NCBI RefSeq assembly: GCF_036785885.1
Contig: NC_092317.1
Location: forward strand, 4,094,501 to 4,158,500
Length of the DNA: 64,000 nucleotides
DNA from: Coffea arabica
Lineage: Eukaryota > Streptophyta > Magnoliopsida > Gentianales > Rubiaceae
Direction of reading: 5' to 3'
The notes under the pieces were generated by a model, which was given only the letters and a program-made list of their open reading frames with translations, did no database searches and was not told the DNA's origin. The position numbers and the translations under genes are program-made. Shown piece by piece: positions 19,201-38,461 of this stretch (the first letter of the stretch is position 1; every line of letters starts with the position of its first letter).

Positions 19201-19372
19201 GGTGTTTGGATTGAGAAGATTTGAAACAAAATAATGTGTTTCACAAATTCCAATCACCTTTTTATCTTCCTAATCACCTTTTTATCTCACATACATCACA
19301 TCACAAAAATTGCTACAGTAATTATCTCAAATAAATCATCCAAATAAACTCCTATCCAAATAAGAATGTGTT
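19201..19372. repeat. Short MITE, TTTGGAT-ended family
   Basis: GTGTTTGGATTGAG at the left is mirrored by CTCCTATCCAAATA at the right, with the internal core CACATACATCACATCACAAAAATTGCTACAGTAATTAT shared (in either orientation) by the copies near 28226, 34358, 37221 and 55921. It is a non-autonomous inverted-repeat element. The superfamily is not resolved. Confidence 0.55.
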
Positions 19373-19630: not shown

Positions 19631-21387
19631 CTAACAACCACCGTGAGCTGAACTCCAAGGTTCTCCGCAAGTATAGCAGAATTGAAATCCACACCTGCAT
19701 CACCACTCATAAAGAAGACATTTTTCAACTTCCCATCTGTTTCTGTTCAGGTAATTGAATGTAGGATTTGTTTGAATCATCCAGGATCCTCGAATGCATA
19801 GACAGATAAAGATAAAGAAATGGATAATCTTGATTCAGGGTACCATGTTTGTTTGGACTGAAAATCTTTTCCAGAAAATATTTTCTTCAATTTCTGGTGG
19901 TTAGCTGCAAAGAGGTCAGGAAAATTTTTTTCCGGTAGAAAATCTTTTACATAACTTGGTGTAAAATGACTTCCGGAATTAAGATACGGAAGTTAGTTTC
20001 TCCCGACAACTATCTATCGCAACTATCTATTGTACAAAACCATCAAGTAATATACCACAGAGATCAAATCAAGAGCAACGTCCCTGCACTTGCTTCTGCA
20101 AATCCCACAACTTTCCACCTCTTCGAGCTCTCCTCTTTCCTATGTTCTTCCCTACCATCCCTTTACTCTTGCGCCACACAAACACATTTATGGATTATAC
20201 AATTCCAGATCTAGATTGGGCTTTGCATTGAGAAGTTTTGGAGAAGAAAAAAATTTCTGGTTTTAGTTTTCTAAAAATTCCCGAGGCCTTCAATGGCCCA
20301 TTATTACTCTCTATTGCTCCTCTTTCCTGTGCCTACAACATATACGTTTTCCTGGATTGTCGTGTTGAACAATGCTCTGTGATTAGGCTAGGCTGTGATA
20401 ATCAAGGGATCACCCATTCTAGTCATAGAAGGAGGAAACCACAACAAGATTCTAGAAACAAAAAAAGAAGGAACAAAAAAGTAATGGTACAATCACCATT
20501 CACAAAAACAGGAGTGACGAGCACTAGAAAGTAGAAACTGACCTGCAAGTCATGTGTATGCAGCCCTGATTTCTTTCGACGTAGTATTTGCATCTAGGAC
20601 ATCTGTTCCAACTTTTCGCCTTGGCAAGCTCCCTCAGCATAAGATCTTCCCTCCCTCTTTCATCCTCATTCATCCTGTGGAACTCTTCACAATCAACCCC
20701 AGGATGCCACGGCACATAACATTGAGCACAAAACAATCTCCGACAAATAGGACACTCGGATTCCCTAATAACTTCATCGCTATCTCTCACCAACATCGCT
20801 GAACAATCCTTAAAAGGACAATAAAACTTCTGAGATGCATCAACCAATGCATCACAAAGCATCTCATCCCACTTTTCCAATACATCTTTAGGCATAAAAG
20901 ACCTACAAGAATCAAACTCAATCGCACTTCCACAATTCACAGCAGGGCACCTGATACCGTGTACATTGTACTCAAGTCTGGCTGCAACATGTTTGCTAAT
21001 GCATTCGTTACAGAACACGTGGCCGCAACTTTGAATCGTGAACATCTGATCTCTTTCTTTTCTATCCACACAAATTTCACAAAAAATCAGTGAAGATTCG
21101 CCCGATTCTGCTGTCATCGCTTCCTCTGCCTGTTCTACTTTAAAACTGAATGATGATGATGATGTAGCAACATTAGCAGCAATATTAAGTGTAGAATAAC
21201 CCTGAGACGGTTCTGGGAGCATCGAAGCCACTAGAGCTTCTTGCAACTGCAATCCTTGAGCACACCTCACATCTGATACGGGAAAAATCTGATCACCTTC
21301 CGCATCTAATTCATCCGCCTCACAGAAAAGTGGAGACAAGTGAAAATCATTACAGGAGAGATCCAATAATGCTGGTTCTTGAGCCAT
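19631..21387 (-). CDS. RING-between-RING E3 ubiquitin ligase (RBR copy A)
   Basis: An intact RBR-type ubiquitin ligase of 302 residues, of the short plant type related to RNF217/ARI-like proteins. RBR enzymes take ubiquitin from E2 onto a RING2 cysteine and then to substrate. Exon 1 is 20543-21387 and exon 2 is 19631-19694 (845 + 64 nt, in frame to TAG). RING1 spans about residues 103-152 (CEICVDRKERDQMF ... CGHVFCNEC ... CPAVNC). The IBR spans about 190-233 (YCPFKDCSAMLV, CPICRRLFCAQC, PWHPGVDC). RING2 spans about 263-302 ([26 protein letters not shown]), with the likely catalytic Cys276 in GCIHM. The N-terminal 100 residues are acidic and Ser-rich with no known domain. The intron is 848 bp. 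Start chosen at MAQEPALLD, shared with copy B. The substrate is unknown. Confidence 0.9.
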
Positions 21388-25986: not shown

Positions 25987-28900
25987 TTATGTTTGCTGAC
26001 AACCACCGTGAGTTGAACTCCAAGGTTCTCCACAAGCATAGCAGAATTGAAATCCACACCTGCATCACCACTCATAAAGAAGACATTTTTCAACTTCCCA
26101 TCTGTTTCTGTTCAAGTAATTGAATGTAGGATTTGTTTGTTTGAATCATCCAGGATCCTCGAATGCATAGACAGATAAAGATAAAGAAATGGATAATTTT
26201 GATTCAGGGTCTGTTTGTCTGGACTGAAAATCTTTTCCAGAAAATATTTTCTTCAATTTCTGGTGTTTGGCTGCAAAAAGGTCAGGAAAATTTTTTTCCG
26301 GTAGAAAATCTTTTACATAACTTGGTGTAAAATGAATTCTGGAATTAAGATACGGAAGTTAATTTCTCCCGACAACTATCTATCGCAACTTATCAGTCTC
26401 CTTGGCGCTTCTCTATTGTACAAAACCATCAAGTAATATACCACAGGGATCAAATCAAGAGCAACGTCCCTGCACTTGCTTCTGCAAATCCCACATCTTT
26501 CCACCTCTTCGAGCTCTCCTCTTTCTTATGTTCCTCCCTATTATCCCTTTTCTCTTGTGCCACACAAAACACATTTATGGATCAGACAATTCTAGACCTA
26601 GATTGGGCTTTGCATTGAGAAGTTTTGGAGAAGAAAAAAAAAAAAGTGAAGCCAATGGAGGCAGGAGGAACATTTTTAGAAGAAGATTTGATACAATAAA
26701 CATCAAGTTTCAATTGCTAATTTCTTATAATGGTTCAATCAGTGGTAAGCATATTTTTATTACAATGACACTCAACCAGGTTTGGGAGATTGTGAGTTCC
26801 TGGTTCTGGTCTTTGAACAATGCTCTGTGATTAGGCTAGGCTGTGATAATCAAGGGATCACCCATACTAGTCATAGAAGGAGGAAGCCACAACAAGATTC
26901 TAGAAACAAAAAAAAAATAAAAGTAATGGTACAATCACCATTCCCAAACACAGGAGCGACGAGCACTAGAAAGGGCTAATTGATCAGAATATAGACGAAA
27001 AAAAAAAAGGTCAGACAACTACGGTTCTGACATTGGATCTGTATAAATCTATGGGTGCCGGGCTGACACAGCCCGGCACCTGACAACTTTAAAACCTGAC
27101 AACTTTAAAAAAAAAAATTGGTGTGTCAGGTGCCGGGCTGTGTCAGCCCGGCACCTGACAGCTTTGGAAAAAAACTTCATTGTCAGGTGCCGGGCTGTAT
27201 CAGCCCGGCACCTGACAGCTTTTTAAAGCTAATTCAATTTTCTGTCTTCTGATTCAATTGTTAAGAAGCCGCAGAGTTTTTGTATTTATGAGATGTCGAC
27301 TAATAAGTGGTGCTTCTTAGTTGGTGGAATCTCACCTTAGTATCCAGTTGTTTAAATTTGTTTAATGGATTAATTAAATTAGTTTAACTAAAATTGATGT
27401 ATTTAGCATAACTTAAGTATAGATATTAGTGTTATTAGTTTAATACAATTTACTTTATTATGCAAATTAGTTGATAATTAGTTTATGTTATTTAGTAAAC
27501 AATTATTTGAATTAGTTTAGTCGATTAATTAGTTGAATTAATTGTGGAATTAGTTAAATTTAAGAGGTTCGATTAAATGAATTTAGATGTATTTGGCGAG
27601 GTTAGTTTATGTTATTTAGTATATGTTATTAGTTTAATTAGTTTAAATGAATTTCGATTAAATGAATTTAAATGAATTAGTTTACTGTTTAGGGTTTAAT
27701 GTTTAGGGTTTTAGGGTTTAGGGTTTAGGGTTTAGTGTTTAGGGTTTGGGGTTTGATCTTTTGCATGATGCAACATGTCACAAATTGGAATTGATAATTA
27801 CTAATCATATCACAATTTCAGCCTTACGATATTTTCTTGAGAATAAAATGAGAAACTATAAATGAAAGAGGAAAATTCAAAATTAAAAGAATATGGATAC
27901 TAGATAATTGTATTTCAAGTCAAGTGATTTGAATATTTTTTAATCATTTAAGGAAAAGATAGAATTCTACAGTTTCTCTTTTTCAATTTCAATCATTAAG
28001 ATATCAATTTTTGTGAAAAAAGAAGAAAATTTAAAGAAACAATAAAGTGACAAAGAAAATATAATACCACAAAAAAGGAACAAAAAAATGCCAGAGAAAG
28101 AAGAGTTAATAATAGTATAGGTATAATTGTGTCCAATGCAAGATAAAGCGAGACAAAAAAATTGTTAGGAGCTACCGTGAAAAATGATATATATTTTAAG
28201 AAATTTAATTACGACGCCTGGATTTGCTTGGATTGTAAGTTATTTGGGATATTTTTACTGTAACACTTTTTGTGATGTGATGTATATGAGATAAAAAGGT
28301 AATTGGGAAGATAAAAAGGTGTATTGAAAATTGTAATGATGTTGTAAACAAATAAAATTGAAGAAATAATGCTCAATCCAAAATATTATAAAAATTTTTG
28401 TCAAGATGCCTTGACCCAAAAATTTTTTTTTTTTCACCTTTTGCGTGTTTGTAAAAGTTGAATGTCAAATGTGTTTTTTATTTTTATTTTTCTATACCGA
28501 TTCAAATTTTGACTCATACTTATAGCAAAAGTTACAAGCACCATTCTCATTGATCTAAACTAAAATAAGCCCAGCTAGTAATTTTGTTTACTTTTCCTAT
28601 TTGCCTCTTTTTTTTCCTGTGTATAATTTCCGGCTACCCCGTTTCCTGAATCAGCAGCAACATATGCAACTTGAGTTGGAATCCGTCAATACTTAGTTAT
28701 GCTATAATAATATTGAACTCTGCAAGGGTACATACTAGATTCAATTCCATGCCAATTTTGACACTTTCTTTGTCAAATTTTTTATTTTGGTTGACCTTTA
28801 TCAGATTATATAGTGCCCTATTCAAATTAATCTTCATGCAACACAACTTTTCGGGTCTCTCCCTTTCTCAACCAAAACACAAAATGGATATCTTTGGTTT

Positions 28901-29960
28901 GGGATGCTTTGATGGGCGCCGGGCTATGACAACTTAAAAAAAAAATAAAGTGGTGTCAGTCAGCCCGGCACCTGACAACTTTTAAAAAAAAAAATTGGTG
29001 TGACAGCCCGGCACCCATAGATTTATACAACCCCCATGCCAGAACCGTAGTTGTCTGACCTTTTTTTTTTACGTCTATATTCTGATCAATTAGCCGAAAG
29101 AAAGTAGAAACTGACCTGCAAGTCATGTGTATGCAGCCCTGATTTTTTTCGACGTAGTATTTGCATCTAGGACATCTGTTCCAACTTTTCGCCTTGGCAA
29201 GCTCCCTCAGCATAAGATCTTCCCTTCCTCTTTCATCCTGATTCAGCCTGAGGAGCTCTTCACAATCAACCCCAGGATGCCACGGCACATGACATCGAGC
29301 ACAAAACAATCTCCGACAAACAGGACACTCGGATTCCCTAATAACTTCATCGCTATCTCTCACCAACATCGCCGAACAATCCTTAAAAGGACAATAAAAC
29401 TTCTGAGATGCATCAACCATTGCATCACAAAGCATCTCATCCCACTTTTCCAATACATCTTTAGGCATAAAAGACCTACAAGAATCAAACTCAATCGCCC
29501 TCCCACAATTCACTGCAGGGCACCTGATACCGTGTACATTGTACTCAAGTCTGGCTGCAACATGTTTGCTAATGCATTCGTTACAGAACACGTGGCCGCA
29601 ACTTTGAATCGTGAACATCTGATCACTTTCTTTTCTATCCACACAAATTTCACAAAAACTCAGTGAAGATTCGCCCGATTCTGCTGTCACTGCTTCCTCT
29701 GCCTGTTCTACTTTAAAACTCGCTGATGATGATGATGATGCAGCATTAGCAGCAATATTAAGTGTCGAATAACCCTGAGACGGTTCTGGGAGCATCGAAG
29801 CCACTAGAGCTTCTTGCAACTGCAATCCTTCAGCATACTTCACATCTGATACGGGAAAAATCTGATCATCTTCCGAATCTAATTCATCCGTCTCACGAAA
29901 AAGTGCAGACAAGTAAAAATCATCACAGGAGAGATCCAATAATGCCGGTTCTTGAGCCAT
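25987..29960 (-). CDS. RING-between-RING E3 ubiquitin ligase (RBR copy B), large intron
   Basis: Sister of copy A. Exon 1 is 29116-29960 and exon 2 is 25987-26059 (845 + 73 nt, predicted 305 residues, TAA stop). It starts MAQEPALLDLSCDDF. RING1 has CEICVDRKESDQMF and CGHVFCNEC. The IBR has CPFKDCSAML and CPVCRRLFCARCHVPWH. RING2 has CPRCKYYVEKNQGCIHMTC plus CGFQFCYACGEPW from exon 2, with the catalytic Cys in GCIHM. The C-terminus reads GGCQQT instead of GGC. The intron is 3,056 bp against 848 bp in copy A, because the element at 26974-29095 sits in it 15-20 bp from the 5' splice site. If the intron is retained, translation would run on to about 28956 and lose the end of RING2. All zinc ligands are otherwise present, so the gene may work if splicing tolerates the insertion. 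Confidence 0.85.
27054..27216. repeat. Perfect hairpin array, GTCAGGTGCCGGGCTG modules
   Basis: There are three palindromes. 27054-27080 has 12-bp arms with loop ACA. 27125-27159 has 16-bp perfect arms GTCAGGTGCCGGGCTG with loop TGT. 27182-27216 has the same arms with loop TAT. A/T-rich spacers separate them. Partial copies occur at the opposite end (about 28914-29028). Confidence 0.9.
27688..27755 (+). repeat. Interstitial telomere-like repeat
   Basis: About eight consecutive or slightly degenerate units of GTTTAGG/TTTAGGG (the plant telomere motif) lie inside the 2.1-kb element. Confidence 0.85.
28226..28382. repeat. Short MITE, TTTGGAT-ended family
   Basis: GCTTGGATTGTAAGTTATTTGGG to GCTCAATCCAAA, with the core TTTTTACTGTAACACTTTTTGTGATGTGATGTATATGAG. 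Same family as the copies at 37221, 34358, 19201 and 55921. It is nested inside the 2.1-kb element. Confidence 0.6.
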
Positions 29961-34300: not shown

Positions 34301-36042
34301 TTTTCTTGTTCCCATCTTGGTAGGCCTGCATAGTTCTTAGTCTAATTCTTTAGTTGATGTTTGGATATCAAATTTTTTCAAATAATATTTTGTTTTTACC
34401 GTATACATATTTTTCAATTCACTTTTTTATATTTTCAATCACCCTTTTATCTTACCTACATTACATCACAATCACAAAAAAGTGCTACCGTAATTATTCC
34501 AAACATTAAATTCACCCACAAGCATTAAATTCCCAAAGCTAAAATGTTAAATTACATAGATCCTGCCCATCCTCATCCTTCCCACACCCAAAACTAAAAG
34601 CGGAAAACCAAGTTGATGCTAACAAAGAAATTGTAGGACGCAGAATAATAGATCATGGTAATTTTGACCCGCAATCAGCAATCAAATAGGACTAATGCCT
34701 CCAGTCCTATATCCTTCTCAATGCTGACCCGGAGCAACCTAAACTAAATGATAGTTCTCAGTTCTGAAATTCATATAGGTCACAAAAGTGAATTGATTTT
34801 CGCACTCCCCCATTTAATTCAACCTCTGCCAATATACAGTCTTCAAAAAGAGTGCTAGAAACTAGCTGGAAAGTGCATATTCACACACTCCAATTCCAGT
34901 GCCGTGGCTTCCCCCCCACCACAAAAATATTCCTCATACGTCGTACACCAAAAGAAATGAAAGCTAAACAAGGGGAAATAAAAAAAATCTATGCCTGCCT
35001 AAAACCAATAAAAAGTTATACTAGTAGTTAGTAGTAAGTCTATATCATTTACCTGACCAAGTTTGGCGTTAGGAAATTTGGTTCTAACAGCATCTTCAAG
35101 CTCCTTACCCAATGGTGCCGCTCCAGACATGACAGTCTTCACCGACGAAAGGTCATATTCATCAACCTCTGGACTTTTGGCTATGGCCAGAACAATTGGT
35201 GGCACAAATGGCCCAATTGTGACCTTATATTTTTGAATCAATTCCAAGAACGGAATTATGTCAAATTTCTGCATGATCAAGATTGTTGTGCCGGCCCTCA
35301 ACCCACATAGCAAAATTGAGTTCAGCGAATATATGTGGAACAGAGGCAAAACGCACATCATCACTTGATTGTGTATATAGAAATTTGGGTTTTCTCCGTC
35401 AACCTGTTGTGCCACGCTAGTGACAAGTCCCTTGTGGGTCAACATCACCCCCTTGGGCAGTCCAGTAGTCCCGGAGGAGTACGGCAGCGCCACCACATCA
35501 TCAGGGCTGATCTCGACGTCCGGCATTTCCCTTTCATCGGCCCCGGTTAGCTCCGAGAAGTGTAAACAACCTTCCGGTGCAGAGTCGATGCACATGACTT
35601 TCACCCCATTTTCACATGCATAGTCCTTGACCTTTTCGACATAACAGCCTTGCGTGATGATGAGCTTTGCGTTGGATGCCTTGGCTTGCTTTATGACTTC
35701 GGCAGAGGTGAAATATGGATTGGCCATCGAGGATATGGCTCCCCGGAAAGATGCACCGAGGAAGGCGAACACGAATTCCGGCGAGTTTGGCAGCAGGATC
35801 ATGATCGTATCTCCTTGCTGTATACCAACTTTGTTAAGCCCGGATGCAACTCTTCTTGCTGTGAGCTCAACTTCTTCGAAAGTGTAAATTTCATCGGTGG
35901 CGCCATTTATCAAACAAGCCTGTGATCTGAACTTAGGAAGGTCTTCGAAACAGTAAGTGTGCAGGGACAGATGTTTTGGGATGTAAATATCAGGGAGCCT
36001 TGATCGGAATATGATTTCTTCTTGCTTTGTTTTGACAGCCAT
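31380..36042 (-). CDS. 4CL: 4-coumarate:CoA ligase (class I type, five exons)
   Basis: Adenylate-forming enzyme that converts 4-coumarate, caffeate or ferulate to CoA thioesters at the entry to lignin and flavonoid synthesis. It acts in the cytosol. Predicted length is 541 residues, normal for 4CL. Exons on the minus strand: 35053-36042, 33536-33734, 31863-32076, 31607-31709, 31380-31499. All phases join in frame. Box I ([11 protein letters not shown]) and box II (GEICIRG) are intact, as are [33 protein letters not shown] and the C-terminal [14 protein letters not shown] with the catalytic Lys. I chose [18 protein letters not shown] at 36042, which matches the usual 4CL N-terminus. The frame is open 85 residues further upstream, but that stretch does not look like 4CL. 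The long HSYCFE/IYIPKHL-type start and overall sequence resemble class I (lignin-type) 4CLs. Introns 2 and 3 hold MITE debris. Confidence 0.95.
32461..33153. repeat. Degenerate MULE-type element in a 4CL intron
   Basis: It starts near AGGTTTCTTTTAATATCACCTGGG and ends AGTGATATTATAAGAAACCTCCC, the same inverted motif (AAACCTCCC, GATATTATAAGAAA) seen at the ends of 21875-23258 and 41382-42148, with decayed termini. It lies wholly within the intron 32077-33535. Confidence 0.55.
34358..34505. repeat. Short MITE, TTTGGAT-ended family, in a 4CL intron
   Basis: TGTTTGGATATCAAATTTTTTC to GTAATTATTCCAAACA, with the core CTACATTACATCACAATCACAAAAAAGTGCTACC, in the opposite orientation to the 37221 copy. 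Confidence 0.55.
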
Positions 36043-37220: not shown

Positions 37221-37381
37221 GTGTTTGGATTGTAAATTATTTGAAATATTTTTACTGTTACAATTTTTGTGATGTGATGTATGTGAGATAAAAAGGTAAT
37301 TGAGAAGATAAAAAAGTGTATTGAAAATTGTAATGGTAATGTAAACAAATATATTTGGACAAATAATCTCCTATCCAAATG
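37221..37381. repeat. Short MITE, TTTGGAT-ended family
   Basis: GTGTTTGGATTGTAAATTATTTG to CTCCTATCCAAAT, with the core TTTTTGTGATGTGATGTATGTGAGATAAAAAGG. This is the clearest copy of the family in the window. Confidence 0.65.
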
Positions 37382-38461
37382 ATAACTTGAATGATGTATT
37401 CCAAATGTAATAGCCAAATAAAAAATATGTTCAGATTGGAGTTTTCTTTAAAAAAATTTTTATCTTTTCTATAAACGTATTTTTTAATTATTTTTTTTAT
37501 TTCACATGTATCATATCGTTATATTATATATATGTATTATAAAAACTTCTAAAAACAGCATTGCTGATAGGTTAGACATTCAGCTATTCATTTTCTAGTA
37601 AATTTTGTCGGAAGTGCAAAATTAAAAGATGCATATCCGAAAACACTTGTAAGAAAAAAATTAGAATTAATTGTGATTGTTATTTTTATTGTTTGCCCCC
37701 TTGTACCGTTGTATCATGGCACAGCTTCTTTACCCTATTCTCCTGCCCCCCTGTCCCAATCAAGCGCATCAGCCCAAACCATCATATCATTGGTGCCCCC
37801 ACGAGGATTATTCACCACATCTTCCCCAAACAAACGTCTGACGCATTTGATTATAATAATCTTATTATTGACCGGCTAAGTGATACGAGTCACATTGTTG
37901 GAATTATTTTACTAAAAGACTTTAGGCGCATGTATCTCTCTGCATTTTATTTGAATAGAGTGTTATTTGAAATAATAACTGTAGTATTTTTTATGATGTG
38001 ATTTATGTGAGATAAAATAATAATTAAAAATATAAAAAAATAAATTAAAAAATATATTTATAATGCAAACAAAATATTATATAAAATAATTCAGCAATCA
38101 AAACACACTCGTTTTCCTTTGTCTCTCCGGTCGAACAAGGCTAATCTGAATTAGTCCTCATTTATCAATTTTGAGCAATTATAAAACAAGAAAGACAAAA
38201 AAATTGTTGAAAAATGTAGCCTCGATAGGAGGAAACAAAGAAGAAAACACAAACATATAATTGAAACTCACGAGCACGTATAATGTTTGAGTAATGACTT
38301 GTTCTATTTTTATTGACGAAATAAAACTTAACGACACCCCAATTGTTCCATCGCTATCAATAACCTTAACCACACGAGGAAACATTTTATTGAGAACAGA
38401 AATAATAATAAATCTGCAAGAATTACAAATAAATTCTTTCACGCGCCGCTGAACATAAATC
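37382..38461. other. Intergenic AT-rich DNA
   Basis: More fragments of the GATGTGATGTATGTGAGATAAAA-type MITE occur around 37990-38100. The minus-strand open frame 38179-38622 has no recognisable domain and partly overlaps the LEA_3 exon. No gene is supported. Confidence 0.5.

Follow-up and report, generated by a model that had tools for sequence, protein, structure and literature searches.

The insertion at 26974-29095 of the window (the whole 64,000-nucleotide stretch of Coffea arabica DNA that was analysed) is almost certainly a non-autonomous Mutator-like DNA transposon (MULE) of the sequence-capturing, Pack-MULE-like sort, belonging to a family in which members of approximately 10 kb carry the gene for a MURA-like transposase, in many cases together with one for a plant mobile domain (PMD) protein. 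This classification is based on 9-bp target duplications and on related ends that enclose a MULE transposase. The 9-bp duplication, the empty site, the family with its large gene-bearing relatives, the make-up of the interior and the near-identical copies were all observed directly for this element, which is an ordinary kind of element and a well-resolved case with an interesting end structure. The original prediction had described it as unclassified and matching no named family with such a combination of features, a view that does not hold at the superfamily level given the transposases and exact 9-bp duplications found with related ends; the match is to the superfamily and to a published group description rather than to a named repeat-library entry.

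Target site, duplication length and host gene

The mirror-image ends of the element are real: its two outer arms of 97 nt are 93% complementary, in keeping with the long terminal inverted repeats (TIRs) of MULEs (Table 1). When the flanks were joined after removal of 9 bp and compared with the empty site in the sister RBR copy A, 114 of 120 positions were identical, while the 14 other lengths reached at most 87 (lengths 0-14 tried, n = 15). The clean empty site predicted in the sister gene was thereby confirmed and, together with other copies in the genome, supports a mobile insertion. GAAAG had been noted on both sides and is indeed common to both flanks, but it is not the full duplication, which is 9 bp; the motif is the shared remainder after later changes in the right copy of the duplication.

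Table 1. Coordinates of the element, its parts and its surroundings (window positions)
Feature	Position	Strand	Remarks
Whole element, read as non-autonomous MULE	26974..29095	+	2122 bp
Left copy of 9-bp target duplication, ACTAGAAAG	26965..26973	.	same as sister empty site
Right copy of target duplication, GAAAGAAAG	29096..29104	.	3/9 changed vs ACTAGAAAG
Empty target site, sister RBR copy A	20523..20531	.	reads ACTAGAAAG, equal to left flank of element
Left TIR core	26974..27070	+	TATAAA at 27042-27047
Right TIR core	28999..29095	-	TATAAA on minus strand at 29022-29027
Hairpin module 1	27054..27080	.	12-bp stem, 3-nt loop
Hairpin module 2	27124..27160	.	17-bp stem
Hairpin module 3	27181..27217	.	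17-bp stem
Right-arm half-hairpin remnants	28959..29016	.	missing halves present in copies on C22, C19 and C4
Segment also found in the non-coding tandem repeats that precede the transposase frame of large elements	27346..27689 (element 373-716)	+	87% to L071, 92% to L072
Telomere-like TTTAGGG array	27687..27754	+	period 7, 9.6 copies; also downstream of frames in 10-kb C6 element
Non-coding segment	27752..28214 (element 779-1241)	+	91-92% to sites on C2, C3 and C9 that lie close to matches of transposase, PMD or family ends
Small dispersed repeat	28225..28382 (element 1252-1409)	.	whole or partial matches at 37222-37379, 37962-38073, 34411-34503 and 19243-19334 in window
Copied DNA, likely from host locus, ~530 bp	28384..28915 (element 1411-1942)	-	91% to each of two paralogues, C130 and C21
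5' splice site, RBR copy B	29115..29116	-	last exon base 29116, first base of intron GT 29115; 20 bp from element

Alignment of the flanks of several copies, as had been proposed for fixing the duplication length, was extended to the family. Fifty of 72 loci were used, the other 22 overlapping the same places, and their 57 ends gave 17 candidate pairs less than 12 kb apart. An exact 9-bp duplication was found in 12 of these pairs, within the 8-11 bp described for MULEs (Dupeyron et al. 2019, PMC6446971); two of the 12 share the left end C2:48121330, leaving at most 11 distinct elements. Among 735 control pairings of left and right flanks across different contigs, the maximum was 7 of 9 identical positions. 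The five pairs with no exact 9-mer at their ends were the window copy (6/9), the C6 10-kb element (5/9), C1:56548122 (4/9), C2:46236921 (4/9) and C16:5048709; their longest exact flank matches were 5 bp in two, 3 bp in one and 0 in two, with none of 6-8 or 10-12 bp. The C2:46236921 pair is probably a false pairing, its right end matching another left end exactly. At C16:5048709-5050760, the 9-mer GGAGACTGG lies on both sides, with three extra bases between it and the left end, perhaps reflecting imprecise end joining like that of the altered right flank in the window. At C2:48121330-48129378, two right ends 5.4 kb apart are each followed by the same flank, GCAGTAGGAGGATA, which suggests local duplication of an element end plus its flank.

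Counting against the MULE reading are the imperfect duplication of the window copy itself (6/9) and the fact that 5 of 17 pairs, including the window copy and the protein-read C6 10-kb element, show no exact 9-bp duplication. GAAAG immediately borders the window copy at either end and the C1:56548122 pair likewise has a longest exact match of 5 bp, as would be expected if the element were of a novel type that duplicates 5 bp of its target (GAAAG) and stands outside the plant superfamilies known so far. Such a type has next to no probability, considering that the sister empty site fits a 9-bp duplication, that 12 of the 17 pairs have 9 bp against two (window copy and C1) with 5 bp, and that related ends surround MULE transposases. 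A 5-bp-duplication superfamily was rejected for the window copy by the empty site and as a general rule by the proportion of 2/17 pairs.

The insertion lies in an intron of RBR copy B. The RBR identity assigned to both gene copies was borne out by RING and IBR domains in each, and the first-exon frame is kept in both. Exon 2 was recognised near 26058 in copy B, and copy A has its donor at 20542 and exon 2 near 19693; these donor positions, with acceptors being approximate, agree with the predicted enlargement of the intron from approximately 0.85 kb in copy A to approximately 3.06 kb in copy B. The element lies 20 bp inside the RBR-B intron, close to the 5' splice site as had been suggested.

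Family copies and transposase-bearing relatives

The genome-wide search with the element ends that had been recommended was run on one genome assembly (1.198 Gb, 131 contigs). The first 20 bases of the element end, with at most two mismatches, occurred 172 and 159 times, compared with 0 and 0 for the reversed control. Whole-element copies of approximately 96% identity were present on C22 and C19, and a copy with a near-identical interior on C4 (among the best 40 of 4243 candidates). The idea that there is no other copy in the genome was rejected by these three copies and the 331 end matches. Over element positions 251-1942 (1,692 aligned positions), the window copy differed from the C4, C22 and C19 copies by 1, 5 and 6 substitutions, respectively, given as raw counts with no clock applied; the same four-copy comparison revealed length differences of 7 and 14 bp in the telomere-like array and an insertion of approximately 150 bp in C4. 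That four copies on as many contigs are nearly identical in sequence shows that the element has moved recently. The extra insertion of approximately 145-150 bp in the C4 copy (C4:903308-905506, L004), at element position 1718, is probably a nested MITE, as its ends look like those of a small inverted-repeat element.

The absence of a transposase was correctly noted for the copy at 26974-29095 itself, but it does not extend to the larger relatives, which encode one. End pairs approximately 9-11 kb apart on C6, C2, C3, C17, C18 and C22 enclosed MULE transposase matches, and the large pairs on C2, C3 and C22 (9.96-10.7 kb) combined such matches with exact 9-bp duplications. The domains of a MURA-type transposase (PF10551, PF03108 and SWIM) were found inside end pairs of relatives: the frames of the C6 copy of approximately 10 kb matched PF10551 (6.7e-20), PF03108 (1.6e-7) and SWIM PF04434 (5.2e-8), with the plant mobile domain PF10536 in two further matches to separate frames (9e-54 and 2.2e-19). 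A relative on C20, whose end starts with the same 20 bases and of which the left part was analysed, contained a 629-residue open frame with PF10551 and PF03108. A close autonomous partner was not found among the best 40 of 144 candidates, the nearest transposase-linked ends being 85% identical (C22), which also counts against the MULE reading.

The PMD gene that characterizes PMD-bearing plant MULE groups was also recovered. Among the matches listed, 61 of 100 transposases were followed on their own strand, at a distance of up to 5 kb, by a PMD match, and no other PMD/transposase arrangement within 5 kb was seen among these 100. By identity class of the listed transposase matches, from closest to most distant, the pairing occurred in 20/25, 16/25, 5/18 and 20/32, and conversely 59 of the 120 PMD matches listed had an upstream transposase. 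For 20 of the 32 more distant MULE transposases listed (40-50% identity), the PMD match followed on the same strand at a distance of 1.0-1.5 kb. The transposase-PMD pairing looks old and stable in the genome searched.

Maize MuDR/Mu elements generate a 9-bp target duplication. A MULE with PMD is a known kind of element (PMC6446971, PMC5418596, PMC7156037, PMC8616336, PMC9168764). The match to a described family with a known transposase that would have told against an unclassified element was found in part: a MULE transposase and exact 9-bp duplications occur in larger relatives whose ends are related, as they do in published plant MULE groups. Several of these combine a 9-bp duplication, a SWIM finger and PMD (Table 1 of PMC6446971), and PMD was first described with a rice MULE, genic PMDs having been proposed to be captured by MULEs twice (Ikeda et al. 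2017, PMC5418596). The PMD-bearing groups 45-48 (VANDAL, MuDR-9_OS, MULE-Monocots and MDR; PMC6446971) resemble the present family in the 9-bp duplication where given, the SWIM transposase, PMD in half or most members and long TIRs in several, a likeness at the level of group description. PMD lies on the sense strand in the present cases, whereas in that account it is sometimes antisense in groups 47-48 and often or mostly so in MUDRAVI2 and MUDR; the descriptions of groups 45-48 given there, unlike the present family, make no mention of hairpin modules or telomere-like arrays. The second gene of MuDR is mudrB (PMC6446971), not PMD. A primer for the TIRA end of maize MuDR, GAGATAATTGCCATTATAGACGAAG (PMC2563033), shares TAATTG and TATAGACGAA with the end of the window element; the TATAGACGAA likeness may be due to chance, since the ends of L069/L070, a large relative, lack it.

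Ferguson and Jiang (2012, PMC3310237) described MULEs that have several TIRs, as well as Pack-MULEs in which motifs recur within the TIR. As presented there, these elements are like ours in being non-autonomous, with long TIRs holding repeated motifs, captured host DNA and altered TIR structure, but the captured piece of the coffee element has no recognised exon and the motif repeated in its ends is a perfect palindrome, not a TIR duplication. Minisatellites have been reported in two animal MULE groups, Rehavkus and Phantom of aphids (PMC6446971), where a tandem array in or next to the transposase region offers a precedent for the telomere-like array; this likeness to animal groups concerns the presence of an array. 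A limited literature search on palindromic or hairpin structures at MULE ends and on telomere repeats associated with MULEs, covering titles and abstract openings among the papers listed, turned up no description of the same combination.

Interior composition and captured DNA

The telomere-like array predicted inside the element is present (Table 1). An array peculiar to the window copy was rejected, as the 10-kb C6 element also has one. The non-coding segment that follows the array additionally matched other places at approximately 80% (among the best 40 of 4243 candidates). In its assembly from non-coding pieces of large elements and approximately 530 bp of apparently copied host DNA, the element resembles a Pack-MULE.

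The two paralogous loci on C130 and C21 are approximately 96% identical to each other in the captured segment and can be aligned with each other over approximately 3.1 kb, well past both ends of the match, and this segment is the sole match of the element to either locus, making the host locus the likely source. At positions that separate C130 from C21, the captured piece sides with C130 9 times and with C21 11 times and stands alone at 33, so that capture probably predates the C130/C21 split, unless evolution has been faster in the captured copy. The captured piece contained no recognised exon, and a 79-residue frame near it had no Pfam match.

We infer an order of deletion and capture in which the coding part of a member of the ~10-kb family would have been lost and non-coding pieces from both sides of it joined, with the small dispersed repeat and the copied host DNA piece being added to the joined pieces and the terminal inverted repeats of the family being kept. 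The retained ends would most likely be bound in trans by a transposase from a relative elsewhere in the genome, and mobilisation in trans by this enzyme would move the element and leave the 9-bp target duplication.

Hairpin modules and remodelling of the ends

Of the perfect GC-rich hairpins predicted at both ends, three are present in the left arm, whereas the right arm holds only half-modules, none of them intact. Across 55 distinct family ends, which are best matches and not a random sample of the family, 37 contained one or more GC-rich hairpins whose stem measured at least 10 (18 none, 12 one, 16 two and 9 three), compared with 0.0018 such hairpins per end expected by chance in mononucleotide shuffles (20 per end). 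TATAAA stood at end position 68-69 in 31 of the 55, elsewhere in the searched interval in 2 and was absent from it in 22, and module 1 begins 12 bp past its first base. Among the 32 ends with TATAAA at 61-80, at least 10 of the 12 pairs of module 1 were kept in 18, and most of the other 14 looked truncated by eye. The seven distinct stem-forming variants of module 1 comprised three with loop-only changes and four with one or two one-sided mismatches; no compensatory pair was found among them, and compensatory change as proof of hairpin function is not supported at this module. In 7 ends the intact module 1 has the loop ACA and in 5 others TGT, which is the reverse complement, and the related end L062 has a palindrome of quite different sequence at the module-1 position.

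The differences among the window, C4, C22 and C19 copies were concentrated in the ends: 21 of 30 substitution columns (counted only where all four copies have letters) and 13 of 16 gap events lay within 430 bp of arms, these arm changes being linked and hence not independent events. The outer 70 bp on either side had no substitution and 3 of the 16 gap events, of one base each. By eye, the arms differed in that hairpins were half-deleted, loops were inverted and the left-arm spacer of the window copy looked like the right arm reversed.

On a reading that we consider moderately probable, the hairpins have no function of their own and are unstable palindromes, being deleted, inverted and exchanged between the arms when DNA is replicated or gaps are repaired. 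The two loop orientations, the clustering of substitutions and gaps in the arms with outermost 70 bp free of substitution, and the spacer that looks like a reversed right arm are consistent with such instability, although clustered substitutions arise by segment exchange and frequent loss alone leaves the 37 module-bearing ends of 55 unexplained. That frequency, the start of module 1 at 12 bp after the first base of TATAAA and the unrelated palindrome of L062 at the same position would instead fit functional end parts kept by selection, acting as transposase or host-factor sites or as structures in the 5' leader of a transcript that begins within the inverted repeat. A selected function of this kind appears unlikely, as 10 or more pairs of module 1 survive in no more than 18 of 32 ends, no compensatory pair occurs there and the recent C4 copy, with an exact duplication, has no intact left-arm modules, a loss that may postdate its insertion.

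The hairpins of the family are widespread but often truncated, and we read them as palindromes with quick turnover and a possible function. A bolder proposal, to which we attach little credence, is that of a MULE lineage in which palindromic hairpin cassettes lie immediately within an inward-facing TATA box and would, over an evolutionarily very short time, be inverted, lose one half or be exchanged between the two arms, the ends being remodelled while the outer 70 bp keep their sequence except for single-base length changes; the cassettes might fold into hairpins in the 5' leader of the transposase transcript or contribute to small-RNA recognition.

Collectively, an element formerly taken as unclassified is now a MULE insertion with a known empty site. 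Its position 20 bp from the donor of RBR copy B, with an uninterrupted paralogue nearby, provides a natural test of the effect of an intronic MULE on splicing, and the four almost identical copies make the remodelling of MULE ends directly readable.
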